64,000 bases of DNA from Asticcacaulis sp. AND118 (GTDB lineage: Bacteria > Pseudomonadota > Alphaproteobacteria > Caulobacterales > Caulobacteraceae): NCBI RefSeq assembly GCF_020535245.1, contig NZ_CP084910.1, positions 596,501 to 660,500 on the forward strand, read 5' to 3'. This document shows positions 5,228-29,101 of this stretch, in pieces. Under the pieces are notes generated by a model. The model was not told the DNA's origin. It did not search any database and saw nothing but the letters and a program-made list of their open reading frames with translations. The number at the start of each line of letters is the position of its first letter. Within the stretch, counting starts at the first letter, position 1. The position numbers and the translations under genes were made by a program.

Positions 5228-5647
5228 TTAAGCCAGCACCACGCTGCCCAGCAGCACCTTCACACCCTTTTGCTTGAGGACGGTGTCGGTGGCGGTTTGC
5301 AGTTCGCGGGTCACGTAATCGAGATCGACCAGCGACGAGGCCGTGAGCCCCATCGCATAGGCCTGAAGCCGCGCGACGAAGGCGTCGCGCAGGCGCGGGA
5401 TCGATTTGCTGATCGCTTCGGCCAGCTTGGCGTTTTTGTTGGTGTCGAGCCCGATCTCGACGGTCAGGGTGCCGTGACGGCGGTCGCGCGTCTTGGTGAA
5501 GACCGTCAAAAGCGGCATCTGCACGAAATCCGCGCCGCCGCCCTTTTTCTTGGGCGCGGAGGCCTGCGCAGGAGACAGGATCAGCCCGCCGGATACCGCT
5601 GCGGTCAGGCCGGACAATTGCCATCGGAGAAGTTCGCGTCTGTTCAT
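5228..5647 (-). CDS. Tat-exported small protein, FliL-like C-terminus
   Basis: From the chosen ATG the product is about 139 residues and begins MNRRELLRWQLSG, a twin-arginine motif followed by a hydrophobic stretch and an AQA cleavage region. I chose this ATG over the longer frame starting at 5680 because it places the twin arginine at residues 3-4. The mature part has the pattern of FliL-type periplasmic domains: a strand with LTVEIGL, a helix with AISKSIPRLRDAFVARL and a terminal KVLLGSVVLA strand. The relation to FliL is inferred from pattern only. The function is unknown. It converges with prfC across a palindromic repeat. Confidence 0.65.
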   Translation of the reverse strand: MNRRELLRWQLSGLTAAVSGGLILSPAQASAPKKKGGGADFVQMPLLTVFTKTRDRRHGTLTVEIGLDTNKNAKLAEAISKSIPRLRDAFVARLQAYAMGLTASSLVDLDYVTRELQTATDTVLKQKGVKVLLGSVVLA

Positions 5648-14119: not shown

Positions 14120-14155
14120 TCCGGTTCGTTCCGGAGGCTGACCGCCGTTGGCCAG
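14120..14155 (-). promoter_or_regulatory. Candidate ANTAR (NasT) RNA element in narK leader
   Basis: Read on the minus strand, P1 is CTGGCC-AACGGC-GGTCAG (14155-14138; six pairs, one G-U) and P2, two bases later, is TCCGG-AACGAA-CCGGA (14135-14120). Both six-base loops have A at position 1 and G at position 4, the known recognition pattern of ANTAR-domain antiterminators. Unlike the nirB and nrt leaders I find no T-tract terminator between P2 and the start codon. The structures are seen; binding by the adjacent NasT is inferred. Confidence 0.7.
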
Positions 14156-14320: not shown

Positions 14321-14932
14321 ATGCCTGCACCGGATAACTCCCCCGTGAATGTGCTGATCATCGACCCCGACGACGCGCGTGCGGCCCTTGTGGCCGAAGG
14401 CCTGCGGCTGGACGAAAGCCTGACCGGGGCGCAGATTCACCACTGGCCGCGCTTCGAACTGGCCCGCCTCAGCGACATCAATCCGGACATGGTCATCATC
14501 GCCTGCGAAAGCCCGGACCGCGATACGCTGGACGCGCTGCAGATCGCCCACGAGCAGGCCCCGCGCCCGGTGGCCATGTTCGTCGACCGCTCGGACGCCA
14601 ATACGACGGCGCAGGCGCTGGAGGCGGGGGTTGCGGCCTACGTCGTGGACGGCTATTCACCCAACCGCGTGGCCTCGATCCTTGCGGTGGCGGCGCACCG
14701 GTTCAACCTGATGCAGACCCTGCGCCACGACCTGACCAAGGCCAAGGCCGATCTGGCGGCGCGCAAGACCATCGACCGCGCCAAGGGCGTGCTGATGACC
14801 TCGCGCGGGATCAGCGAGGAGGAGGCCTATCGTCTGATGCGCAAGCACGCCATGGATTCGGGCCGTCCCATCGCGGCGATCGCCGAGGATATTCTGTCCA
14901 TTTCCGACCTGCTGAAGAAGAGGGACGACTGA
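14321..14932 (+). CDS. nasT: ANTAR-domain antiterminator, nitrate response regulator
   Basis: 203 residues. Residues about 9-125 form a receiver-like domain (VNVLIIDPDDAR, then DMVIIACESPDRDTLDAL); residues about 140-200 form the ANTAR RNA-binding domain (KTIDRAKGVLMTSRGISEEEAYRLMRKHAM). NasT proteins bind two-hairpin leaders and prevent termination of nitrate-assimilation operons; NasS holds NasT inactive without nitrate or nitrite. The stop overlaps the nasS start by one base. At the usual phosphoacceptor position I see Ala rather than Asp (IIACESP), in keeping with control by NasS instead of phosphorylation. Three candidate target leaders lie nearby. A GTG at 14345 is an alternative start. 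Confidence 0.92.
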   Translation: MPAPDNSPVNVLIIDPDDARAALVAEGLRLDESLTGAQIHHWPRFELARLSDINPDMVIIACESPDRDTLDALQIAHEQAPRPVAMFVDRSDANTTAQALEAGVAAYVVDGYSPNRVASILAVAAHRFNLMQTLRHDLTKAKADLAARKTIDRAKGVLMTSRGISEEEAYRLMRKHAMDSGRPIAAIAEDILSISDLLKKRDD

Positions 14933-16077
14933 TGCTGAGTGTACGTATCGGTTTCAGCCCGCTCAACGATGCCGCCCTGGTCGTGCTGGCCGAGGTGCTG
15001 GGATGCTACGCCGCCGAAGGGCTGGACGTCTCCCTGAGCCGCGAGGCCAACTGGTCGAACATCCGCGACAAGCTGTCCTATGGCCTGCTTGATGCCGCGC
15101 ACGTGCTCGCCACCCTGCCGCTGGCCCGCGGGTTGGGCCTGGGCCCGACCATCGGTCAGATCATCGCGCCCATGGCGTTGGGGGCCAACGGCAATTCGGT
15201 GGTCATCTCCTCGAAGCTGAAAGAGGTGTTCGAAGGGATGGGCGCCTCGACCCTGCTCGAATCGGCGCGCGCCCTGCGTCTGGTCATCCAGCACCGCCGC
15301 GCCGTCAGCGAAGGCAAGGTGACGCTGGCCATCCCGTTCAACTATTCGCCGCATCACTTCGTCCTGCGTCACTGGCTGGCGGCGGGCGGCGTCGATCCCG
15401 ACCGTCAGGTGCAGTGGGTGGTTCTGCCGCCCTCGCGCATGGCCGACCATCTGCGCGACGGGGTGATCGACGGCTTCTGCTCCGGCTCGCCCTGGCCGCA
15501 GATGGCCGAACTGAACGGCGACGGCGTGGTGCTGTTTTCCGATCCGGCCTTCTGGACGCTCAAGCCGGAAAAGGTGCTGGCCCTGCGCGGCACCTGGGCC
15601 GACGAACACCCGGAAGAAGCCGTGGCCCTGACCCGCGCCGTGCTGCGCGCCGGGCAGTGGGCGGCGGATCCGGCCAATGCCAACGCCATGGCCGAGGTGC
15701 TGAGCCAGAAAATCTATGTCGGCGCGCCGCTGGAGGCCGTTCAGAAGGCGCTGGCCCCCGGCGGTGCGGGCCTGATCCTCGATCCGCAGACGACGACCTT
15801 CCCGTGGATCAGCCACGCCAAATGGTTCATCGGGCAGTTCGTGCGCTGGGGCCTGACCGAAGGCGACCACGATTTCGACGCCATCGCGCGCCGGGTTTAC
15901 CGGCCCGATCTGTGGCGTCAGGCGGCGGAACCCCTGGGCCTGTCGCTGCCGCTCGACGACGAAAAGGACGAAGGCGGGGCGGCCGAGGCGTGGACGCTGC
16001 CGGCCGAGCCGAACGACATCCTCATGCCGCCGAACACCCTGTTCGACGGCGGTGTGTTCCGGGTGAGCCGGGCTTGA
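14932..16077 (+). CDS. nasS: Nitrate/nitrite sensor, NrtA/CmpA-like binding protein
   Basis: 381 residues, related to the nitrate-binding protein NrtA (compare the gene at 24184) but with no signal peptide, which is what defines cytoplasmic NasS. Visible family segments are IGFSPLNDAALVVLAEVLG, the ligand-loop WSNIRDKLSYGLLDAAHVLA, FNYSPHHFVLRHWLAAGG and DGFCSGSPWP. NasS binds NasT when nitrate is absent and releases it on ligand binding. Start and nasT stop overlap (TGATG), so the sensor and antiterminator are translated together. A palindromic repeat follows and separates it from the nirB leader. Confidence 0.93.
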   Translation: MLSVRIGFSPLNDAALVVLAEVLGCYAAEGLDVSLSREANWSNIRDKLSYGLLDAAHVLATLPLARGLGLGPTIGQIIAPMALGANGNSVVISSKLKEVFEGMGASTLLESARALRLVIQHRRAVSEGKVTLAIPFNYSPHHFVLRHWLAAGGVDPDRQVQWVVLPPSRMADHLRDGVIDGFCSGSPWPQMAELNGDGVVLFSDPAFWTLKPEKVLALRGTWADEHPEEAVALTRAVLRAGQWAADPANANAMAEVLSQKIYVGAPLEAVQKALAPGGAGLILDPQTTTFPWISHAKWFIGQFVRWGLTEGDHDFDAIARRVYRPDLWRQAAEPLGLSLPLDDEKDEGGAAEAWTLPAEPNDILMPPNTLFDGGVFRVSRA

Positions 16078-16079
16078 AT

Positions 16080-16242
16080 CATACCTTCCCGGCTATGCCG
16101 GGAGGGGACCATTTGCGGAGCAAATGGTGGTGGGGTGGTCTCACCGAATTTCAACTGGCGCGTATTTGGATGGCTTAGCCAGATACCCCACCACCACGCC
16201 CTGACGGGCGCGGTCCCCTCCCCATCAAAGATGGGGAGGTAT
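16080..16242. repeat. Long imperfect palindrome between nasS and the nirB leader
   Basis: It starts with TACCTTCCCGGC..GCCGGGAGGGGACC and ends with GGTCCCCTCCCCATC..GATGGGGAGGTA, with an inner GGTGGTGGGGTGGTC / ACCCCACCACCAC pair. It is the same family as the copy at 5041-5222. The position, directly after the nasS stop, would allow it to end nasTS transcription before the separately regulated nirB leader. Confidence 0.65.
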
Positions 16243-16315: not shown

Positions 16316-16364
16316 GGATCAAAGGCGATCCACAGACATTCGCTCCGGCGCGCCAATGGCGGCG
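16316..16364 (+). promoter_or_regulatory. ANTAR (NasT) RNA element in nirB leader
   Basis: P1 is GGATC-AAAGGC-GATCC (16316-16331) and P2 is CGCC-AATGGC-GGCG (16351-16364), with a 19-base linker. Both loops are six bases with A1 and G4. The P1 loop AAAGGC is identical to that of the porin-nrt leader on the other strand. An ATTGACA box (16278-16284) lies 32 bases before P1 and may be the -35 element; the -10 is weak. An intrinsic terminator follows at 16392. This is the layout of NasT/NasR-controlled leaders. Confidence 0.8.
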
Positions 16365-16391
16365 AGACGGGGCCTCCACCGGACAAAGACG

Positions 16392-16441
16392 TCCCGCACT
16401 CCTGAAACGCTCACGCGTCAAGGGAGTGCGGGATTTTTTTT
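16392..16441 (+). terminator. Intrinsic terminator in nirB leader (regulated)
   Basis: TCCCGCACTCC pairs perfectly with GGAGTGCGGGA (11 bp), and the stem is followed at once by eight T. The loop contains a small inner ACGC/GCGT stem. It lies between the ANTAR element and the nirB start 37 bases on, so without antitermination nirBD would not be transcribed. Confidence 0.92.
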
Positions 16442-16477: not shown

Positions 16478-18994
16478 ATGGCCTTCAATCTCGATACCCC
16501 CCCTAAGCCCCGGATTGTCGTCATCGGCGCGGGCATGGCCGGCGGCCGCATCGTCGAGGAAATACTAAAACGCGCGAATCCTAGCGAAGGTGGGCGCATG
16601 TTCGACATTTCGATCATCGGCGCCGAAGCCTGCGCCACCTACGACCGCATCCAGTTGTCGCCAGTGCTGGCCGGGGAAAAGACCTTCGAGCAGATCGTCA
16701 CCCATTCGCAGGACTGGTACGACCTCAACGGCGTAAAGACGCATTTCGGCTGCTGGGTGCAGGGCATCGACCGCGAGGCCAAACAGGTCATGCTGCACGA
16801 CGGTCAGACGATCGGCTACGACTATCTGATCCTCGCTACCGGGTCCGACCCGATCCGCCTGCCGCTGCCCGGTGCCGACCTGTCGGGCGTGGTTGCTTTC
16901 CGCGATCTGCACGATGTCGACCTGATGCAGAAGGCGGCTGCCCATGCTTCTAAAAAGGGTGGCGGGGAAGCGGTGGTGATCGGCGGCGGCCTGCTGGGCC
17001 TTGAGGCCGCCTACGGTCTGGCCAGGCGCGGCATGAAGGCCACGGTCGTCCACCTCGTCGATGTGCTGATGGAGCGTCAGCTCGATGAGGCCGCCGGGCG
17101 TCTGCTGGAAAAGGCGCTGGCCGAACGCGGCGTCTCGGCGGTGCTCAATGCGCAGTCCGAGGCTATTGTCGGCGAAACCCATGTCGAGGGCCTGAAGCTG
17201 AAGGACGGGCGCGTCATCCCGGCCTCGCTGCTGGTCATGGCGGTGGGCATCCGTCCACACGTCGAACCGGCGAAGTCGGCGGGCCTGACGGTCGAGCGCG
17301 GCATCGTCGTCGACGATCAGATGCGCACCGACGATCCCTTCATCTTCGCGGTCGGCGAATGCGTGCAGCACCGCGGTCAGTGCTACGGCCTGGTTGCGCC
17401 GATCTGGGACATGTGCCGGACGCTGGCCGACGTGCTGACGGGCAGGAATCCCGACGCGGCCTATCTCGGTTCGGAACTGGCGACGCGCCTGAAAGTGTCG
17501 GGCGTCGATCTTTACTCGGCGGGGCAGTTCAACGGCGGCGAGGGCTGCGAGGACATCGTCTTCCGCGACCCGGCGCGCGGCGTTTACAAGCGCATCGTCA
17601 TCAAGGACAACCAGTTGGTCGGGGCCGTGCTGTTCGGCGAGGCGGCGGACGGCGGCTGGTATTTCGACCTGATCAAAAAGGGTGAAAGTATCGGCGATAT
17701 CCGCGACACCCTGATCTTCGGTCAGGCGGTGACGGAGGCGCTGGCCGGCGTGGACCCTAACGCCGCCGTTGCGGCATGGCCCGACGACACGGAAGTGTGC
17801 GGCTGCAACGGCGTAAGCAAGGGTACGGTGGTCGAGGCGATCTGCGGCGGCGCGGACAATCTGGACAAGGTGCGCGGCTGCACCAAGGCCAGCGCGTCGT
17901 GCGGTTCGTGCACCGGCATTGTCGAACAATTGCTGAAGGTGACGCTGGGCGACGCCTTCAAGGCGCAGACCGGCCCCAAGCCGATGTGCAAGTGCACCGA
18001 GCATGGTCACGCCGTGGTGCGCAAGACGATTGTCGAGCAGGAATTGAAGACCATTCCCGACGTCATGCAGGCGATGAAGTGGACCACGCCCGACGGCTGT
18101 TCCTCGTGCCGTCCGGCGTTGAACTATTACCTGCTGTGCGCCTGGCCGCGCGAATATCAGGACGATCCGCGCTCGCGCTTCGTCAATGAGCGCAACCACG
18201 CCAACATCCAGAAAGACGGCACCTATTCCGTCGTGCCGCGCATGTGGGGCGGCGTGACGACGGCCAAGGAACTGCGCGCCATCGCCGATGTCTGCGACAA
18301 GTACGAGGTGCCGATGGTCAAGGTGACCGGCGGTCAGCGTCTCGACCTGTTCGGCATCAAGAAGCAGGACCTGCCCGCCGTCTGGGCCGACCTCAATGCC
18401 GCCGGCATGGTGTCGGGCCACGCCTACGCCAAGGCCCTGCGCACGGTGAAGACCTGCGTTGGTTCGGAATGGTGCCGCTTCGGCACGCAGGATTCGACCG
18501 GGCTGGGGATCAAGCTGGAGCAGGACACCTGGGGCTCTTGGATGCCGCACAAGTTCAAGATGGCCGTGTCGGGCTGCCCGCGCAACTGCGCGGAAGCTAC
18601 CATCAAGGACTTCGGCGTCATCTGCGTGGACTCCGGCTATGAACTGCACGTCGGCGGCAATGCCGGCATCCATCTGCGCGGCACGGACCTGTTGTGCAAG
18701 GTGGCGACCGAGGCCGAGGCCCGCGAATATTCGATGGCCTTCGTCCAGTTCTATCGCGAGGACGCCTGGTATCTGGAGCGCACCGCGCCGTGGATCGAGC
18801 GTGTCGGGCTTGAGGCCATCAAGGCGAAGATGTTCGACGCCGACGAACGCAAGGCGCTGTCGGGGCGGTTCCTCGAATCGCAGGCGGTGTTTCAGGTTGA
18901 TCCGTGGGCGGAACATGCGCCCAAATCCGAGCCGGCGCAGGTGTTTTCGCCGCTGGCCGACCTGCGCAGCGAGAAGAAGGAGATCGCCCGATGA
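16478..18994 (+). CDS. nirB: Assimilatory nitrite reductase [NAD(P)H], large subunit
   Basis: 838 residues, the usual length. It reduces nitrite to ammonium with NAD(P)H in the cytoplasm. Domains in order: an FAD/NAD(P)H pyridine-nucleotide reductase part (residues 1-420; VVIGAGMAGGR, then VVIGGGLLGLEAA), a BFD-type [2Fe-2S] domain around 440-490 (VCGCNG ... GCTKASASCGSC), and the sirohaem/[4Fe-4S] part, with Cys ligands in VGSEWCRFG (about 660) and SGCPRNCAE (about 700). The BFD-like CSSC motif is also present near 540. All cofactor ligands I can place are intact. It overlaps nirD by ATGA and is preceded by a terminator-containing leader with an ANTAR element. Confidence 0.97.
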   Translation: MAFNLDTPPKPRIVVIGAGMAGGRIVEEILKRANPSEGGRMFDISIIGAEACATYDRIQLSPVLAGEKTFEQIVTHSQDWYDLNGVKTHFGCWVQGIDREAKQVMLHDGQTIGYDYLILATGSDPIRLPLPGADLSGVVAFRDLHDVDLMQKAAAHASKKGGGEAVVIGGGLLGLEAAYGLARRGMKATVVHLVDVLMERQLDEAAGRLLEKALAERGVSAVLNAQSEAIVGETHVEGLKLKDGRVIPASLLVMAVGIRPHVEPAKSAGLTVERGIVVDDQMRTDDPFIFAVGECVQHRGQCYGLVAPIWDMCRTLADVLTGRNPDAAYLGSELATRLKVSGVDLYSAGQFNGGEGCEDIVFRDPARGVYKRIVIKDNQLVGAVLFGEAADGGWYFDLIKKGESIGDIRDTLIFGQAVTEALAGVDPNAAVAAWPDDTEVCGCNGVSKGTVVEAICGGADNLDKVRGCTKASASCGSCTGIVEQLLKVTLGDAFKAQTGPKPMCKCTEHGHAVVRKTIVEQELKTIPDVMQAMKWTTPDGCSSCRPALNYYLLCAWPREYQDDPRSRFVNERNHANIQKDGTYSVVPRMWGGVTTAKELRAIADVCDKYEVPMVKVTGGQRLDLFGIKKQDLPAVWADLNAAGMVSGHAYAKALRTVKTCVGSEWCRFGTQDSTGLGIKLEQDTWGSWMPHKFKMAVSGCPRNCAEATIKDFGVICVDSGYELHVGGNAGIHLRGTDLLCKVATEAEAREYSMAFVQFYREDAWYLERTAPWIERVGLEAIKAKMFDADERKALSGRFLESQAVFQVDPWAEHAPKSEPAQVFSPLADLRSEKKEIAR

Positions 18995-19324: not shown

Positions 19325-19432
19325 CCCCCTCTCCCTTGAGGGAGAGGGTTGGGGTGAGGGGGGGTGAACTCCGACCTTCCCCCTCACCCCGCGCTGATGC
19401 GCCACCCTCTCCCTCAAGGGAGAGGGGGAGTT
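19325..19432. repeat. REP-like palindrome between nirD and nasA
   Basis: It opens with CCCCTCTCCCTTGAGGGAGAGG and GGGGTGAGGGGG and ends with CCCCTCACCCC..CCCTCTCCCTCAAGGGAGAGGGG. The same unit, with small differences, lies at 23011 and 24064. The final GAGAGGGGGAG doubles as the ribosome binding site of nasA. Confidence 0.8.
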
Positions 19433-19437
19433 GTTGA

Positions 19438-22151: not shown

Positions 22152-22195
22152 TTCAGGCGACGCTTCAGGCGACGCTTCAGGCGGTGATTCAGGCC
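22152..22195. repeat. 12-bp tandem repeat at the nrtD stop
   Basis: TTCAGGCGACGC occurs twice, followed by the variant TTCAGGCGGTGA and a partial TTCAGGCC. On the minus strand each unit supplies an in-frame TGA, so nrtD ends in four successive stop codons. It looks like local duplication of the stop region. Confidence 0.8.
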
Positions 22196-22998
22196 GGTTC
22201 GGCCAGCGGCGCCGGCGCATGATCGTGGGCTTCGAGGAAGCTGACGATGCGGCGGCGGCAATCGACAAAATGCGCGTCCTGCATCACGGCCTTGCGGTCG
22301 CGCGGGCGCGGCGTCTTCACCTCGACGATGTCGCCGATGCGCGCCTTGGGGCCGTTGGTCATCATCACCACGCGGTCGGCCAGCAGCACGGCCTCATCGA
22401 CATCGTGGGTGATCATCAGCACGGTTGCGCAGATGCGCTCGTGCAGTTCCATCACCGTGTCCTGGAGGTGCGCGCGGGTCAGGGCGTCGAGCGCGCCGAA
22501 GGGCTCATCCAGCAGCAGCACCTTGGGCTCCATGCTCAGCGCGCGGGCGATGCCGACGCGTTGTTTCATGCCGCCGGAGATTTCGCCCGGACGCTTGTCC
22601 CTGGCGTGGGTCATCTTGACCAGTTCCAGATTGTTCATCGTCCGGTCGTGGAGCTGTTTCAGGTTCTCCTTCGCGCCGTAGAGCTTGGCGACGGCGAGGC
22701 GGACATTCTCGTAGACCGTCATCCACGGCAGAAGCGAATGGTTCTGGAACACTACGGCGCGCTCCGGGCCGGGGCCGGTGATCGCCTTGTTGTCGAGCAA
22801 AGCCGCGCCCAGCGTTACCGGCACGAGGCCCGCGACGACGTTGAGAAGCGTGGACTTGCCGCAACCGGAATGGCCGATGATCGACAGGAATTCGCCCTTG
22901 TGGACGCTGAGCGAGACATTATCGAGGACCTGAGAGATGACGCAGTCGCGCTCGAAATCGACATAGATGTTTTCAAGGGAAAGGATGGGTTTGGACAT
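22189..22998 (-). CDS. nrtD: Nitrate ABC transporter, ATP-binding protein
   Basis: 269 residues from the ATG at 22998, which has a GGAGG site seven bases before it. The longer frame back to 23178 merely translates the repeat element. ABC motifs are complete: Walker A GHSGCGKST, Q-loop FQNHSLLPW, signature EISGGMKQR, Walker B VLLLDEPFGALD, and a switch His in MITHDVDEA. It energises uptake through NrtB. It lacks the C-terminal NrtA-like domain of cyanobacterial NrtC. It is the last gene of the porin-nrtA-nrtB-nrtD operon. Confidence 0.94.
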   Translation of the reverse strand: MSKPILSLENIYVDFERDCVISQVLDNVSLSVHKGEFLSIIGHSGCGKSTLLNVVAGLVPVTLGAALLDNKAITGPGPERAVVFQNHSLLPWMTVYENVRLAVAKLYGAKENLKQLHDRTMNNLELVKMTHARDKRPGEISGGMKQRVGIARALSMEPKVLLLDEPFGALDALTRAHLQDTVMELHERICATVLMITHDVDEAVLLADRVVMMTNGPKARIGDIVEVKTPRPRDRKAVMQDAHFVDCRRRIVSFLEAHDHAPAPLAEPA

Positions 22999-23010
22999 GT
23001 TTTGCCTCCA

Positions 23011-23132
23011 GGCCCCCTCTCCCTGAGGGAGAGGGTTGGGGTGAGGGGGGAATAGCGAGCACAGGCGGATAAAGGTGTCCCCCCTCATCCGACCCGCCAG
23101 CGGGTCACCTTCTCCCTCAAGGGAGAAGGGAA
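23011..23132. repeat. REP-like palindrome between nrtB and nrtD
   Basis: It has the same ends as the copy at 19325 (CCCCTCTCCCTGAGGGAGAGG; TTCTCCCTCAAGGGAGAAGG) around a variable centre. It lies between two genes that must be transcribed together, so it probably does not terminate; it may stabilise the upstream part of the message. Confidence 0.8.
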
Positions 23133-23137
23133 ATTGA

Positions 23138-24046
23138 TCAATCCGCGGTGGTGCCGCGCGAGACGTACTGACCGACAAGGGCCACCAGACGATCCAGCAC
23201 GAAGCCGACCATGCCGACCCAGAGCAGGGCGACGATGATGTCGGACATGCGCGACGAATTGTACTGGTCCCAGATGAAGAAGCCGATGCCGACGCCGCCC
23301 AGCAGCATTTCGGAGGCGACGATGGCCAGCCAGCTCATGCCGACGCCGATGCGCAGACCCGTGAAGATGTGCGGCGTGGCGGCGGGCAGCATGATCTTGA
23401 AGAAATACTCGGCCGGAGTCAGGCGCAGCACCTTGGCGACATTGACGTAATCCTGCGGGATGTTGCGCACGCCGACCATGGTGTTGATGACGATGGGCCA
23501 GATGGAGGTGATGAAGATGACGAAGAGGGCCGAAGGCTGGGCTTCGCGCAGCGCCGCCAGCGAGATCGGCAGCCAGGCCAGAGGCGGCACGGTGCGCAGG
23601 ACCTGAATGATCGGGTCCGTGCCCTTGCGCGCCCAGTCGACCGTGCCGAGGAAGGCCCCCAGCAGCACGCCGCACACGGCGGCCAGACCGAAGCCGACGC
23701 CGACGCGCGAGAGGGATGTCAGGACGTGCCAGAACAGGCCCTTGTCGACCCCGCCGCGATCGTAGAACGGATCGAAGATCAGCTCCTGCGCCTCCATCAG
23801 CACCATCGACGGCGAGGGCAGTCCGCCGGGAAAGGCGTTGCCCAGCGCTTCCCATATCAGCAGCAGCGCGCCGACGGTGAGCAGCGGCATGAGGTAGTTG
23901 CCGGCCTTATCGGCCAGCTTGCGGCGTCTGGAGGCGGCGATCTGTTTCGCCTGCGCCGCCGCCAGAAGGGTCTGGGGTTGATGGGCGACGGGGACGGCAG
24001 GCGCGGCAGGGCGGGGGGCGGTCATTTTTTGAACTTCGAATGGCAT
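23138..24046 (-). CDS. nrtB: Nitrate ABC transporter, permease
   Basis: 302 residues from the ATG at 24046 with AAGGA in front; the longer frame from 24610 runs through a repeat and part of nrtA in another frame. Five to six transmembrane helices follow a polar N-terminus of about 50 residues. The EAA loop that contacts NrtD is seen in the ALREAQPSALFVIF and NVAKVLRLTPAEYFFKIMLPAA segment. It is the membrane channel of the NrtABD system. Repeats lie on both sides of it. Confidence 0.93.
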   Translation of the reverse strand: MPFEVQKMTAPRPAAPAVPVAHQPQTLLAAAQAKQIAASRRRKLADKAGNYLMPLLTVGALLLIWEALGNAFPGGLPSPSMVLMEAQELIFDPFYDRGGVDKGLFWHVLTSLSRVGVGFGLAAVCGVLLGAFLGTVDWARKGTDPIIQVLRTVPPLAWLPISLAALREAQPSALFVIFITSIWPIVINTMVGVRNIPQDYVNVAKVLRLTPAEYFFKIMLPAATPHIFTGLRIGVGMSWLAIVASEMLLGGVGIGFFIWDQYNSSRMSDIIVALLWVGMVGFVLDRLVALVGQYVSRGTTAD

Positions 24047-24063
24047 GGGAGTTCCTTGCTTCA

Positions 24064-24177
24064 AACCCCCTCTCCCTAAAGGGAGAGGGTTGGGGTGAGG
24101 GGGATGTCGAGATCGTGGTTGCCCCCTCATCCGGTCTCGCGGTGCTCGACCACCTTCTCCCTCGAGGGAGAAGGGAA
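24064..24177. repeat. REP-like palindrome between nrtA and nrtB
   Basis: This is the third copy of the family at 19325 and 23011, with CCCCTCTCCCTAAAGGGAGAGG on the left and CTTCTCCCTCGAGGGAGAAGG on the right. The centre differs between copies while the ends are nearly constant. Confidence 0.8.
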
Positions 24178-24183
24178 GAGTGA

Positions 24184-25440
24184 TCAGGCCAGTTTCTTGA
24201 TCGGCTGGCTGGCGAGGTAGGCGTTGGGATTGGCCCAGTCGAAGGTCTTGCCGTCGAAGAACCGCTCGACGCCGCGCGAATCCGCCGGGGCCGGGATGCC
24301 GTACTGCTTGGCCACTTCGCGCCACAGGTCGGAGCGGTTGACCGTGTTGACCAGCGCCTTGGTGTCCACATCGTTGTCGATAATGCCCCAGCGTTTGTTC
24401 TCGGTGACGAACCAGGCATCGTGCGACTTGAACGGGAAGTTGGCGTTGTCGGCCCAGAACTTCATCAGGTGCGGCGATCCGGCGACATTGCGCCCGTCGC
24501 CGTAATTGATCTTGCCCTGCAGGCGCGGCAGGATGTCGTTGATCGGCACGTTGATGTACTGACGGCCCGCCGTAATGGCGCACATGGCCGGGCGGTTCTT
24601 GTCGCACCATTGGGCCGCTTCCATCACCGCGGCGATCAGGGCCTTGGCGGCGTTCGGATATTTATCGACCCAGTCGGCGCGCATCCCCAGCGCCTTTTCC
24701 GGGTGGTTCATCCAGATTTCCGAGGTCGTCGCGGCGGTGTAGCCGATCTTCTGATTGACCAGTTGACCGTTCCACGGCTCGCCGACGCAGAAGACGTCCT
24801 GCGTCCCGGCCTTCATGTTCGCCACCATCTGCGGCGGCGGGATGACGATGGTCGAGACGTCGGTGTCCGGATTGATCCCGGCGGCCGCCAGCCAGTAACG
24901 CACCCACAGGTCGTGCGTGCCGCCGCGATAGGTCATGGCCACCTTGGCCAGGTTTCCGGCGGCCTTGAGCTGCGCGAATTTCGCCTTCGCGCCGGCGGCG
25001 TTGAGCCCGACCTGCACGTTTTTCAGATCGTTGCCGACGCTGATGGCCTGACCGTTGGTGTTGAGGCGGGCAAGGATGTACATCGGCGTCTTGCGAGCGC
25101 CGACGCCGAGGGTGAACTGATAAGGCATGGGGCTGAGGATGTGCGCCCCGTCTATGCCGCCGCCTTGCGCGCCCAGCACGATATTGTCGCGCGTCGCCCC
25201 CCACGAGGCCTGCTTCAGCACCTCGACATTGGGCAGGCCGTACTTGGCGAACAGGCCCTTTTCCTTGGCGATGATCAGGGGCGAAGAGTCGGTCAGCGCG
25301 ATGAAGCCCAGCTTGGCGCCGGAAACCTCCGGGCCCTTGCCGGCGGCGAAGGCGCCTGACGGGAAGAGGGTTCTGGCGGCGGCGACAGTGGCGGCAGCGC
25401 CGATGAGCGCCTGACGTCGGGAGAGGGAGATGTCGGTCAT
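24184..25440 (-). CDS. nrtA: Nitrate ABC transporter, substrate-binding protein
   Basis: 418 residues. The N-terminus MTDISLSRRQALIGAAATVAA holds a twin-arginine (Tat) signal with cleavage near AFAAGK, so the protein is exported folded to the periplasm. The mature part is NrtA/CmpA-like: GFIALTDSSPLIIAKEKGLFAKYG, WGATRDNI, THDLWVRYWLAAAGINPD, FCVGEPWN. Trp, Gln, Gly, Lys and Thr residues around these blocks bind nitrate in known structures. It is the exported relative of NasS at 14932. AAGGGA stands ten bases before the ATG, and the gene follows the porin by 12 bases. Confidence 0.95.
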   Translation of the reverse strand: MTDISLSRRQALIGAAATVAAARTLFPSGAFAAGKGPEVSGAKLGFIALTDSSPLIIAKEKGLFAKYGLPNVEVLKQASWGATRDNIVLGAQGGGIDGAHILSPMPYQFTLGVGARKTPMYILARLNTNGQAISVGNDLKNVQVGLNAAGAKAKFAQLKAAGNLAKVAMTYRGGTHDLWVRYWLAAAGINPDTDVSTIVIPPPQMVANMKAGTQDVFCVGEPWNGQLVNQKIGYTAATTSEIWMNHPEKALGMRADWVDKYPNAAKALIAAVMEAAQWCDKNRPAMCAITAGRQYINVPINDILPRLQGKINYGDGRNVAGSPHLMKFWADNANFPFKSHDAWFVTENKRWGIIDNDVDTKALVNTVNRSDLWREVAKQYGIPAPADSRGVERFFDGKTFDWANPNAYLASQPIKKLA

Positions 25441-25452
25441 ATCGATAGTCCC

Positions 25453-26706
25453 TTAAAGCTTGTATTCGAAGCCGACCCACACCTTGGTGCGGGAGGCGGG
25501 CATGAGGGTGTTGGCGCGGTCGAAGTCGGCGTATTTCAGCAGCAGCGACAGGTTCCTGGTCAGGCCGGCGGCGAACTGCGCGTCGAATTCCGTGCCGATC
25601 GACTGGCTGAGGCGATCCGTCTCGAAGTCGTGATAGGCCAGCGTCAGGGTCGGGTTCTTGATCAGCGGGAAGGACGGGTGGGTGTAGCCCGCCACAGTCA
25701 GGCTGTAGCTGAGGTTTTTGAACCCGTTGGCCATGGTCTTGTTGCCGGAGAAGGCCAGCGCGTCGGACCAGCCGTTGAAGGCGTGCGTGGTGGCCAGCGG
25801 CGTGATAAAGCCGCGCGTGCCGTCGCCCTCGAACGTCTCGTAGCCGAGCTTGAGGGTGTACATGTCCCAGGTCACCGCGGCGTCGATATTATAGGCCGAA
25901 AGCTCGAAGTCGGCGGGGTTGTAGCCATAGTCGGTCTGTTGGGCGTAATAGCCCGAATAGGCCAGTTTGAACGACGACAGCCAGGCCGAGCCGGAGGCCT
26001 TGAGCCCGATGGTGTTGGTCGAATTGGCCTTGGCGTTTTCGAAATCGAGCGCGTAGTCGAAGGCCTGAAGCTTAAGCGCTTCATTGACCGGCAGGGTGAC
26101 GCTGAGCAGGTGGCTGTCGGAATCCCAGTCCGCCGTTTCGGCGAGGACGCGGTTGACCTGAAACACGTAGGCGTAGGTGACGGCCAGCTTGCCCACCGTG
26201 GTGTCGACGCGCAAGGCATCGAAGGTCTGTTCGTCCTGACGCCAGCCGACATTGCCGACGAAGCGCGCATCGTCGAGCACCAGACGCTGACGTCCGGCGG
26301 TGACGGTGGTGAAGCTCGACGGCGACCACACCACCTGCGCGCGGTTCAGTTCGGTCACGGTCGGGTCGTTCACCGCCGGATACTGGGTCTTGCCGTTGGT
26401 GGTTGAATTGTAGTCGTCGTCCAGCGCGCGGACGTCCTCGAATTCGACGAGGAATTTCAGGTTCTTCCAGTCGGCGGACTGAAACCCGATGCGGTTGCGC
26501 AGCGTCAGGGCCGAGCCCTTCTGCAGTCCCGCCTGATCGACGCCTTCGTAGCGCAGGCGGCTTTCCAGCAGCGGCTTGCCCGCCGCGAGGGCTTCGCCAA
26601 ACGTCTCCTGAGCGAAAGCCGGAACGCTCAGTCCGGCTAAAAATGTTGCGCCGCACAAAATTAAGGGCGCACTTTTCCGACGCAGCTTTGGATGGGCCAC
26701 GGTCAT
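25453..26706 (-). CDS. Outer-membrane porin, alginate_exp-like, of the nitrate operon
   Basis: 417 residues from the ATG at 26706 (CAGGGG before it). A Sec signal peptide ends at VPAFAQ|E. The rest shows the alternating pattern of a large beta-barrel and ends in the aromatic VWVGFEYKL, typical of outer-membrane insertion. Segments such as ESRLRYEGVDQAG and RQRLVLDDARFVGNVGWRQDEQTFDALR match the alginate-export porin family. Being first in the operon with nrtABD and under the nitrate leader, it is probably the route for nitrate through the outer membrane (inference). The longer frame from 26868 runs through the leader hairpins and is rejected. Confidence 0.85.
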   Translation of the reverse strand: MTVAHPKLRRKSAPLILCGATFLAGLSVPAFAQETFGEALAAGKPLLESRLRYEGVDQAGLQKGSALTLRNRIGFQSADWKNLKFLVEFEDVRALDDDYNSTTNGKTQYPAVNDPTVTELNRAQVVWSPSSFTTVTAGRQRLVLDDARFVGNVGWRQDEQTFDALRVDTTVGKLAVTYAYVFQVNRVLAETADWDSDSHLLSVTLPVNEALKLQAFDYALDFENAKANSTNTIGLKASGSAWLSSFKLAYSGYYAQQTDYGYNPADFELSAYNIDAAVTWDMYTLKLGYETFEGDGTRGFITPLATTHAFNGWSDALAFSGNKTMANGFKNLSYSLTVAGYTHPSFPLIKNPTLTLAYHDFETDRLSQSIGTEFDAQFAAGLTRNLSLLLKYADFDRANTLMPASRTKVWVGFEYKL

Positions 26707-26722
26707 ATCCCCTGAAAAGAGC

Positions 26723-26783
26723 AAAAAAAAAACGCCCCAGACTACACCGCCGGTTCCCCTTGCGCGGTAATGGTCTGAGACGT
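26723..26783 (-). terminator. Intrinsic terminator in porin-nrt leader (regulated)
   Basis: On the minus strand ACGTCTCAGAC pairs with GTCTGGGGCGT (11 pairs, two G-U), an inner ACCGC/GCGGT stem extends it, and ten T follow. It lies 17 bases before the porin start and after the ANTAR element, so the operon depends on antitermination. Confidence 0.88.
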
Positions 26784-26802
26784 CATTGTCCGATGGTGAG
26801 CG

Positions 26803-26849
26803 GGGCCGTCGGTGGCCCGCGCCGCGTGTCATCCGCCTTTGGATAACAC
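26803..26849 (-). promoter_or_regulatory. ANTAR (NasT) RNA element in porin-nrt leader
   Basis: On the minus strand P1 is GTGTTATCC-AAAGGC-GGATGACAC (26849-26826, nine pairs with one wobble) and P2 is GGGCC-ACCGAC-GGCCC (26818-26803). Both loops have six bases with A1 and G4. The loop of P1 equals that of the nirB leader. An ATTGAC box precedes P1 by about the same distance as in the nirB leader (26883-26878). It is the clearest of the three elements. Confidence 0.88.
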
Positions 26850-26956
26850 CGTGAGCGTCATATAACATTCACGGGGCGTCAATCGCTTTTTTCGCATGTG
26901 CGTACGATTTTCACCAAGCGATAACCTTGTGATGTATTTTCGCAACGAAAAGCGGG

Positions 26957-29101
26957 TCAGGGTACGGGAATTTCCTCCCACATCAGCACGGTGCCGTTCT
27001 TGCGGTCCGGGTCGGCGCCGGGCCAGTCGGCGGCATAGGGTTCCCCCGTGCGACCGTCGAGCCCCAGATAGCGGTGGGTGCGCAGCGACATCAGCATGAA
27101 CTGATGGCGCAGCATGTCCTGCCACTGGAACAGGCTGTCGGGCGTTTCGCTCTTCATCAGCCGCACATCCGAGGACAGGCCCAGACCGACCACGGTGAGG
27201 AAACCGCTGCCGTCCATGGCCTCCAGCGCCACGCGGCCCTGACCGCGATCGTGGACGCGGAAGCGCGCGCCCGGCCCGGCGGCGTCTTTGGAACCCTGCG
27301 CCGCAAAGTGCAGCATGCCGTGCGGATTGGCCCACATGGGCAGGTCGTTGGCGAGGTTGCGGATGGTCACGATCTTGCCCGCCGGGATGTTCTTCGAGCG
27401 GTCGGCCAGGGGCTCATCGACGCGGAAATCGTCGAAGTCGGCCTTGCCGCCCTCGACGCCCTTTTCATTGTAAGCGAACAGGGCGTAGCGCACGCCCTGA
27501 AAGGTGCGCAACTGATAGGCGGTGCGCAGTTCGCCGCCGATCGGCGTGAAGGTCTTGCCATCGGTCGAATAGCTGAACTGCGCCAGTTCGGTGTCGTAAT
27601 TGCCGGAGACGCGCAACTGCACGCGCGGGCCGTTCAGGGCGGTCTCGACCGTGGTGTCGGCGAGTTGATCGTACAGACGCAGGCGATAGCCCTTGCCGTC
27701 GCGCACCACGCCCAGCCAGTAGTAGGGGATGTTGAGCAGGGCGAGGCCGGCCACGTCGCCGGCCTTCAACCCCCTGGCGTCCAGTGTCGTGGTTGCCGTC
27801 GATTCCGGTCCGATGGCGCGCTGGGTCAGGCTGTTGCGCGCCAGCAGGAAATGCGGGGCGGGCAGGCTGTGCAGCCGCAGATAGCCGCGCCGCTCGGACA
27901 GCGACCATTTCCGGTCGTCCGGCACGTGGTTCCATTGCCAGATCGCCTGAGGCTTCGGACCTGAGAAGTCGTCATTACGCTGATAAGTCGGGGTGGGCGT
28001 GGCTGCGACGCCGGTAGCGGGTTTCAGCCAGGTGCGCGGGCTTCGCCCGAAATTTCCGGAAAGGCCGAAATACGGCCAGCCATCCTGCCATGTTACCGGC
28101 GACAGGAAGGTGGTGCGGCCCATCGATTTGACATCCATCATCGAAAAGCCCCACCAGTCCCCATTTGGCAATTCGACAATGCCGCCCTGATGCAGCGGAT
28201 CGGCCCCGAAGGCGTTGCCGCCCGGCGGGGGCGGCGAAACGCCGATCTTGTCGCCGGGCGCCGGCAGGTTGCGCCCGATGCCGGTGGTGCGCCAGCCGAA
28301 GGGCGTGCCCATGGTTTCGCGCGCGCTGATCGTCACCGTCTCATAGGGGCCGTAGGGTGTGTCGGCGCGGGCGGCCTGCATCCGCCCGACGGGGGCGTAG
28401 TTGGCGCTGATAATGTAGTACTTGCCGTTGATCTTATAGAAGTGGTGGCCTTCGCCCATGGCGTTGCCGGCCGGAATGATCACCTTGTCGCTGCCTTCGA
28501 CATAGCCGCTGAGATCGGGCTTAAGCTCGATCATGCGGACCTCGTCATAGCCGTGTACGGCGTAGATTTTGCCGTCGTCGTCAAACAGGACAGAGAGGTC
28601 GTAGATCTTGCCGCCCAGCTTTTTATGCGTCCACGGCCCGGCGGGATCGGTCGCCGTGAAGACCTGCATGCCGTAGCCGTTGATATTGGAGAAGATGTAG
28701 AAGGTCCCGTTGTGATAGCGCAGCGCCGGGGCCCAGATACCCGCCCCATAGGCGCTCTTGCCGTCTTCGAGCCTGTATTCCGGGCCCATCTCCAGACGGT
28801 CGAAGGCATAGCCCAGCAGCTTCCAGTTCACCAGGTCCTTCGAATGCAGCACGGGCAGGCCGGGCATGGTGTGCATGGTGGTGCCGGTCATGTAGTAGTC
28901 GTCGCCGACGCGGATCAGGTCGGGGTCGGAAAACTCGTCGTTGAACAGCGGATTGGTGAAGGTGCCGTTGCCGTTGTCCGGCGTCCAGGTCGTCGCGGCG
29001 GTGGTCCTGGGGAGCGGTTGCGCCGGCGCCTGCGCGACGGCGGGCAGGGCGAACAGGGCAAGCGCGGCGATCAGCGCGTTCGGTGCGAAGCGGGCGGGCA
29101 T
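26957..29101 (-). CDS. Secreted glycoside hydrolase, GH43 family
   Basis: 714 residues from the ATG at 29101, which has AGGAAACC before it and gives a clean signal peptide (MPARFAPNALIAALALFAL ... VAQA). The first 330 mature residues form a five-bladed beta-propeller: FSDPDLIRVGDDYYMTG holds the catalytic base Asp, YDLSVLFDDDG the pKa-modulating Asp, MGEGHHFYKINGKYY the acid Glu. A concanavalin-like domain follows (about 380-580), then a beta-trefoil-like C-terminus (KIVTIRNLANDLPMWAN, YLGLDGRTGE). Likely activity is on xylan or arabinan side chains, as for the operon 2.5 kb away. A promoter lies just upstream. Confidence 0.88.
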   Translation of the reverse strand: MPARFAPNALIAALALFALPAVAQAPAQPLPRTTAATTWTPDNGNGTFTNPLFNDEFSDPDLIRVGDDYYMTGTTMHTMPGLPVLHSKDLVNWKLLGYAFDRLEMGPEYRLEDGKSAYGAGIWAPALRYHNGTFYIFSNINGYGMQVFTATDPAGPWTHKKLGGKIYDLSVLFDDDGKIYAVHGYDEVRMIELKPDLSGYVEGSDKVIIPAGNAMGEGHHFYKINGKYYIISANYAPVGRMQAARADTPYGPYETVTISARETMGTPFGWRTTGIGRNLPAPGDKIGVSPPPPGGNAFGADPLHQGGIVELPNGDWWGFSMMDVKSMGRTTFLSPVTWQDGWPYFGLSGNFGRSPRTWLKPATGVAATPTPTYQRNDDFSGPKPQAIWQWNHVPDDRKWSLSERRGYLRLHSLPAPHFLLARNSLTQRAIGPESTATTTLDARGLKAGDVAGLALLNIPYYWLGVVRDGKGYRLRLYDQLADTTVETALNGPRVQLRVSGNYDTELAQFSYSTDGKTFTPIGGELRTAYQLRTFQGVRYALFAYNEKGVEGGKADFDDFRVDEPLADRSKNIPAGKIVTIRNLANDLPMWANPHGMLHFAAQGSKDAAGPGARFRVHDRGQGRVALEAMDGSGFLTVVGLGLSSDVRLMKSETPDSLFQWQDMLRHQFMLMSLRTHRYLGLDGRTGEPYAADWPGADPDRKNGTVLMWEEIPVP

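Follow-up and report, generated by a model that had tools for sequence, protein, structure and literature searches.

Why does the gene of an outer-membrane porin, the first of an operon that continues with the nitrate transport genes nrtA, nrtB and nrtD, lie behind a run of hairpins and a terminator? The first-pass annotation of the 64,000-nucleotide stretch of Asticcacaulis sp. AND118 analysed here (the window) had taken these elements for a NasT-type antitermination leader that puts the porin and a nitrate ABC transporter under one RNA switch. Our analysis upholds the kind of element and revises its parts. Judged from its sequence and its relatives, the stretch is very probably the 5' leader of the porin-nrtABD mRNA and a transcription attenuator controlled by NasT. 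This best reading is favored by the presence of nasT and nasS in the same window, by a sister leader in front of nirB, by covariation in the distal hairpin and by the co-occurrence of such leaders with ANTAR genes.

Anatomy of the porin-nrtABD leader

The two hairpins described on the minus strand within 26849-26723, with the loops AAAGGC and ACCGAC, are present both in the sequence and in the fold (hp1 and hp2; Table 1). The terminator stem of 11 pairs (ACGTCTCAGAC / GTCTGGGGCGT) was borne out as well, with 12 pairs in the full fold, and the ten T that follow it (26732-26723) stop 17 bases short of the porin start codon (ATG, 26706). The hairpin inventory had to be changed: the antiterminator hairpin, hp3, sits in what had been regarded as a linker, and neither hp1 nor hp2 overlaps the terminator. 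From its loop position 5 onward, hp3 is part of the 5' arm of the terminator, ACGTCTCAGAC; in our alignment it occupies columns 99-112, of which 107-112 are common to the terminator arm. Because the 3' half of hp3 is shared in this way, the two structures cannot both form and are predicted to be mutually exclusive, as in the published ANTAR mechanism. On its own, hp3 has a folding energy of -2.3 kcal/mol, and the porin-leader terminator one of -26.8 kcal/mol. The leader as a whole folds at -61.2 kcal/mol, with a shuffle mean of -48.98 (z -3.26; 1/200 shuffles as good). A consensus scan of 26600-27000 for sigma-70 promoters and for terminators returned neither.

Table 1. Features of the nitrate cluster, numbered from the first letter of the window; loops are set off by hyphens
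Feature	Position	Strand	Evidence
-35-like box TTGACG of a probable promoter	26877..26882	-	by eye, upstream of hp1 in genus leaders
hp1, distal hexaloop hairpin, GTGTTATCC-AAAGGC-GGATGACAC	26826..26849	-	sequence, fold, 20-leader alignment
hp2, middle hexaloop hairpin, GCGGGCC-ACCGAC-GGCCCCGC	26800..26820	-	sequence, fold, alignment
hp3, antiterminator hairpin, GGAC-AATGAC-GTCT, overlaps terminator	26778..26791	-	alignment, nascent fold
Intrinsic terminator stem ACGTCTCAGAC...GTCTGGGGCGT	26732..26783	-	fold, 20-leader pairing
Ten-T tract	26723..26732	-	sequence
Porin, Alginate_exp family, first operon gene	25453..26706	-	Pfam PF13372 E 1.2e-8
NrtA-like nitrate-binding protein	24184..25440	-	PF13379 E 6.5e-97; start 12 nt past porin stop
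NrtB permease (open frame, start codon provisional)	23138..24610	-	TIGR01183 306.5 bits, over cut-off
NrtD-type ATPase (open frame)	22189..23178	-	TIGR01184 322.5 bits, over cut-off
NirB	16478..18994	+	TIGR02374 869 bits; nirD, nasA then to 22098
nirB-leader terminator and T tract	16391..16441	+	-31.4 kcal/mol
nirB-leader hp3, GGAC-AAAGAC-GTCC, overlaps its terminator	16381..16394	+	sequence, finder, fold
nirB-leader hp2, CGCC-AATGGC-GGCG	16351..16364	+	sequence, finder
nirB-leader hp1, GGATC-AAAGGC-GATCC	16316..16331	+	sequence, finder
NasS-like nitrate/nitrite sensor (NrtA-like)	14932..16077	+	best solved relatives nitrate transport proteins/domains, 3.4e-47
NasT, ANTAR protein	14321..14932	+	PF03861 E 5.1e-21
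narK element, first hexaloop, CTGGCC-AACGGC-GGTCAG	14138..14155	-	sequence, relatives
narK element, second hexaloop, TCCGG-AACGAA-CCGGA, no T tract after	14120..14135	-	sequence, relatives

A strict finder was set to report an A1/G4 hexaloop (A at loop position 1, G at position 4) that overlaps a terminator arm and has at least one further hexaloop 18-80 nt upstream. It returned exactly two arrays in the window, the porin and nirB leaders, each with three hexaloops, and none in 40 shuffled versions of the window with dinucleotide content preserved. The short pattern CGGACAAWGACGTC, itself read off these leaders, has two exact matches in the genome, and both are the leaders.

With the porin and nrtA 12 nt apart, the earlier proposal that one leader stands before both genes is reasonable. 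A search of the porin against solved structures gave no relative at E up to 1; among the family genomes, 73/199 have a match to it (E up to 1e-20). The order nasT-nasS-[leader]-porin-nrtA is found again in related clusters (26 loci), often with narK or nirB next, and in some clusters a further leader precedes one of these two genes. By our search criteria a leader is seen at 20 of the 40 porin loci screened, and ten genus porin paralogs with no nrtA in the fetched stretch have no leader by the same criteria. The genome also has a second porin (L048, G000:C2:32772-33995), 54-55% identical, on another contig, with neither a nearby nrtA nor a leader; porin paralogs resembling it were fetched from nine other genus genomes. 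REP-like palindromes (e.g. CTTCTCCCTCGAGGGAGAAG) were noticed by eye between genes of the nitrate cluster, namely nrtA-nrtB (24180-24150, minus strand), nirD-nasA (19325-19435, plus strand) and nasS-nirB (16078-16240, plus strand).

The probable regulator genes and the nirB leader

A PF03861 search of the genome gave a single match, NasT, encoded in the same window as the leader, and no second ANTAR protein was found. The nasT and nasS open reading frames overlap, and nasT thus adjoins a nitrate-binding-like protein gene, as expected of a NasS-NasT pair; NasS resembles NrtA and NrtC domains. NasT can be aligned to the solved chains of Rv1626, EutV, NasR and AmiR, two of these names following entry titles and papers. 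In the accessible part of the EutV structure report, G4 is held by Arg142, Lys149, Glu160 and Tyr164 (PMC8934654). With a presumed offset of 2 between EutV and chain numbering, the aligned NasT positions are R148, K155, E166 and Y170, which are invariant in 10/10 aligned NasT sequences. Available text on Caulobacter places NtrC peaks at nasT and narK (PMC10274813), which fits nitrogen control of the promoters.

The genome carries two leaders of this kind, in front of porin-nrtABD and of nirBD-nasA. The 5' arm of the nirB-leader terminator begins with the GTCC of its hp3, and in both window leaders an RNA ending at hp3 is predicted to fold into three hexaloop hairpins. Since the window contains no match at the gathering score of any Rfam family, the covariance-model check proposed in the first-pass annotation was restricted to models that we built ourselves. 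Our model R1, made from 20 genus leaders and untrained on the nirB leader, detects that leader at E 1.5e-6 in the window. Across the 4.05-Mb genome, R1 places first the porin leader, itself part of the training set (E 1.9e-22), then the nirB leader (9.7e-5), and the next match has an E-value of 6.8. We attribute that match, which lies within nrtA at 24854-24952 and has an E-value of 0.11 when the window alone is searched, to chance. A second model, R2, made from 28 leaders of other genera, puts the porin leader at the top in the window, but at E 9e-4 and beside a probable chance match at 5367-5440 (E 1.1e-3).

Conservation within the genus

Porin matches were found in 22 genomes of the genus, and we used the best locus of 20 (L018-L036, L068), one leader each; the unused genomes were G080 (38% identity) and G052 (a fragment). 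All three hairpins align in 20/20 leaders, with some mismatches, and the three-hairpin structure has 95.4% of its 280 cells paired, compared with 26-58% in slid versions of the structure. Doubly changed cells number 39, compared with 15.6 in shuffles (0/500 shuffles as high); two of the five measures, pairs with a double change (6, shuffled 5.7) and further pair types (12, shuffled 11.9), are not above shuffles. Changes on both sides occur in 6 of the 7 pairs of hp1, where 91.4% of cells are paired. The stems of hp2 and hp3 barely vary, so that covariation supports hp1 and, weakly, the terminator. The outer 8 pairs of the terminator are formed in 160/160 cells, and in two leaders an A to G change at hp3 loop position 5 turns a terminator A-U pair into G-C. 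In nascent minimum-energy folds of the 20 leaders, hp1 appears in 14, hp2 in 18 and hp3 in 13.

Conservation of the loops in related genomes, which the first-pass annotation had made a touchstone of its reading, is clear: G4 occurs in 60/60 loops of the 20 leaders, with the hp3 G4 fixed by selection because it belonged to the pattern by which rows were picked. Loop by loop, hp1 has A1 and G4 in 20/20 each, hp2 has A1 in 19/20, G4 in 20/20 and a closing C:G in 20/20, and hp3 has A1 in 20/20 and G4 in 20/20 (the latter by selection). A1 is missing from one loop, hp2 of L025, which begins with G. Where a dual-hexaloop motif calls for at least two C:G-closed six-base loops with A1 and G4, the 20 leaders have three each. 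Loops are spaced 26-36 nt apart from hp1 to hp2, 23-37 nt from hp2 to hp3 and 52-70 nt from hp1 to hp3.

Leaders and ANTAR genes across the family

An ANTAR gene is present in 73/199 family genomes. R1 (E up to 0.01) matched 22 genomes, all of the genus, and R2 matched 35 at E below 1e-5, a cut-off narrowed to this value after the list was seen. Among the 57 leader genomes, 54 have an ANTAR gene, as against 73/199 overall (Fisher 1.4e-28); the training leaders of both models sit in counted genomes and are found by construction, and the presence of an ANTAR gene is independent of this. Six genomes at R2 E 5e-4 to 0.01 were omitted (G012, G031, G035, G137, G141, G186), two of which are counted through R1; with R2 taken at E up to 0.01, four genomes are added and the count becomes 56/61. 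R2 at this wider cut-off detects 2/25 genus genomes, and the window's own genome is not among them. Within the genus, a leader is found in 21/21 ANTAR genomes and in 1/4 others (G099, 370 contigs). The three leader genomes in which no ANTAR gene was found (L096 of G099, L065 of G018, L271 of G053) could be explained by assembly gaps or by loss of nasT. At these models and cut-offs, 19/73 ANTAR genomes gave no leader match.

Layout in other genera

Run on 80 named NasT loci, the strict finder reported arrays at 42, 43 in all (30 with two hexaloops and 13 with three), and no arrays in one shuffle of each of these loci. Beyond the genus, some of the third hexaloops may stand beside the others by chance. 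In many rhizobial leaders the loops lie about 19-21 nt apart. Of the porin loci examined in other genera, 28/30 combine a distal A1/G4 hairpin with a hexaloop on the terminator side; these loop counts reflect selection, as the rows were chosen by the pattern of an A1/G4 hp1 and a G4 hp3 and the other 2 were dropped. Sixteen of the 28 rows fold, as nascent RNA, with a middle loop of six bases some 25 nt ahead of hp3, with G4 in 16/16 and A1 in none (15 G and 1 C at position 1); the remaining 12/28 have a tetraloop, another loop or none at the middle position. The middle loop lies nearer to the position wanted by the short-linker rule of EutV. Given the six-base middle loop in 16/28 nascent folds, we dropped our description of Caulobacter-type leaders as two-hexaloop arrays. 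The middle stem drawn earlier for these leaders is poorly kept (31% of cells), and a looser stem-only count (G4 in 21/24 middle loops) was discarded because it read tetraloop stems one pair too wide.

The Rfam narK RNA and the narK element of the window

The Rfam narK RNA (RF03032), curated as one hairpin, looks like the same kind of switch as the NasT antitermination leader. At E up to 0.001 its model matches 17 of the 349 genomes from the phylum, in 13 of which the family cut-off is exceeded, and all 17 have an ANTAR gene, compared with 130/349 overall (hypergeometric 2.5e-8); a NasT relative lies within the fetched flank at 11/28 loci. Among the 28 matches (L139-L166), our finder places a hexaloop at the curated hairpin in 25, another one within or next to the tail, which is unpaired in the Rfam model, in 19, both in 17, and a terminator starting at the tail in 22. 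The first 17 nt, GGCAC-N5-TTGCT, have what we take to be a resemblance to a -24/-12 sigma-54 promoter. The family would then seem to join a sigma-54-like promoter to a NasT-type antitermination leader. The window leader is not a member of RF03032 (16.6 bits, E 0.83, below the gathering score of 43.2). On the whole genome the model gives 20 matches, the best at E 0.64 and the two leaders at 1.95 and 4.62; weak matches also occur in 13/14 control genomes, and the model therefore cannot identify the window leader.

The window has a narK element of its own, with two hexaloops 19 nt apart, about 80-116 nt before the ATG (14039) of the divergent narK and flanked by TTGGGGA/TCCCCAA. It is present in the window and in 9/11 stretches fetched from relatives; among these 10 sequences, position 1 of the second loop is A in 5 and G in the other 5. 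Its overall fold is no better than that of shuffles. We had at one point set aside the narK-side hexaloop as chance, its core word not being conserved, and dropped this view given the second hexaloop and the relatives. The element is a candidate ANTAR target that may act without intrinsic termination. The accessible part of a study of a Bradyrhizobium nasT mutant reports that narK and bjgb, with predicted NasT hairpins, are up (PMC6759348), and so the narK element of the window may work differently from the leaders.

Proposed mechanism and alternatives

From these parts we infer NasT binding, a nitrate response, read-through, the use of all three hexaloops and the transcription start, and we propose the following sequence of events. 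As RNA polymerase leaves the promoter, three hairpins with six-base loops would form in order. When there is no nitrate, NasS would hold NasT, the weak hp3 would yield to the stronger terminator and transcription would stop before the porin gene. Nitrate or nitrite would make NasS release NasT, and free NasT would grip the hexaloops by the G4 of each and stabilize hp3, so that the terminator could not close. Read-through would then lead to production of the porin and the nitrate ABC transporter, and a second copy of the switch would control nirBD-nasA. If correct, this makes an outer-membrane porin a member of the nitrate-assimilation regulon.

Could the hairpins be nothing but inverted repeats that arise by chance in GC-rich DNA? 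Stray single A1/G4 hexaloop hairpins do occur in upstream regions; arrays, however, are absent from the 40 window shuffles and the 80 locus shuffles (with 43 arrays in 42/80 real loci), and conservation in 20/20 genus leaders refutes this explanation, to which we give practically no weight. The strength of the terminator alone (-26.8 kcal/mol) would agree with constitutive termination, or with an attenuator that responds to translation, another protein or a small molecule. We count against the NasT-controlled leader that, in the accessible part of the Bradyrhizobium study, only two of the genes lowered in the nasT mutant have a clear hairpin (PMC6759348). A constitutive terminator or another kind of attenuator is nevertheless very unlikely, since neither would lead one to expect the conserved A1/G4 loops, the overlap of the antiterminator with the terminator and the tight co-occurrence with ANTAR genes.

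A NasT-controlled attenuator might also use two of its three hexaloops, with hp2 recruiting NasT, hp3 acting as antiterminator and hp1 being an upstream stem with another job. According to the accessible part of PMC8934654, EutV requires a short linker and 20 extra nt abolish antitermination; hp2 and hp3 are 23-37 nt apart and the loops of many rhizobial leaders about 19-21, whereas hp1 and hp3 are separated by 52-70 nt. On the other hand, hp1 keeps A1 and G4 in 20/20 leaders despite compensatory changes in its stem, and in the selected rows of other genera it is the distal hairpin that is canonical A1/G4 (28/30 porin loci) and the middle one that is not A1. We regard this division of labor as possible and rather improbable. 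About equally tentative is a joint reading of all the elements: a three-hexaloop relay in Caulobacteraceae NasT leaders, in which hp1 captures NasT and passes it through the middle loop to hp3, RF03032 as the two-loop form fused to a sigma-54 promoter, and the narK element as a NasT target lacking a terminator, perhaps working in the opposite direction. If true, a middle loop about 25-30 nt before the antiterminator would let a capture site 50-70 nt away work, at a spacing fatal in the two-loop eut system.

Comparison with known systems

The kind of system is known; new to us, within the searched literature, are a layout with three hexaloops and a porin as target. A three-hexaloop ANTAR leader or a NasT leader of a porin-nrtABD operon was not found in the accessible portions of the sources, which did not cover most subscription journals. 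For nasA leader RNA, binding by NasT is described, and growth on nitrate requires hairpin HI, according to the available parts of PMC3795266, PMC5424462 and PMC6759348. The NasT leaders of Paracoccus denitrificans nasA and Bradyrhizobium diazoefficiens nosR/nirA, as far as these parts describe them, share with ours the NasS-NasT pair and the hairpins before nitrogen genes; the window leaders differ in having three hexaloops, and the first regulated gene is the porin of a nitrate ABC operon. Like the window leaders, RF03032 has a hexaloop hairpin and, after it, a hexaloop on the terminator side, and our analysis proposes a regulator for this family curated as a single hairpin.

NasR/nasF of Klebsiella and EutV/eut of Enterococcus have the same C:G-closed A1/G4 hexaloops and a second hairpin that excludes the terminator, as described in the accessible parts of PMC3369931, PMC7496416 and PMC8934654, and the closing C:G, A1 and G4 of the window leaders agree with the NasR SELEX consensus given there (PMC7496416). 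Whereas those systems have two hexaloops and a short linker, the leader of the window has a third hexaloop and a first-to-last loop distance of 52-70 nt. EutX / rli55, in the same portion of PMC8934654, combines a dual hexaloop motif with an extra single hexaloop that has G4, which provides a precedent for more than two hexaloops in one RNA, although EutX / rli55 is a protein-sequestering small RNA and ours is an operon leader. The available account of the EutV structure has G4 as a stacked base and A1 without a specific contact (PMC8934654). Genera differ at the middle loop, which is canonical A1/G4 or mostly G1/G4, and keep the outer two. The leaders described here offer a naturally occurring case in which to ask, as the EutV-RNA structure paper does, why antitermination requires more than one hexaloop if the dimer holds only one at a time.
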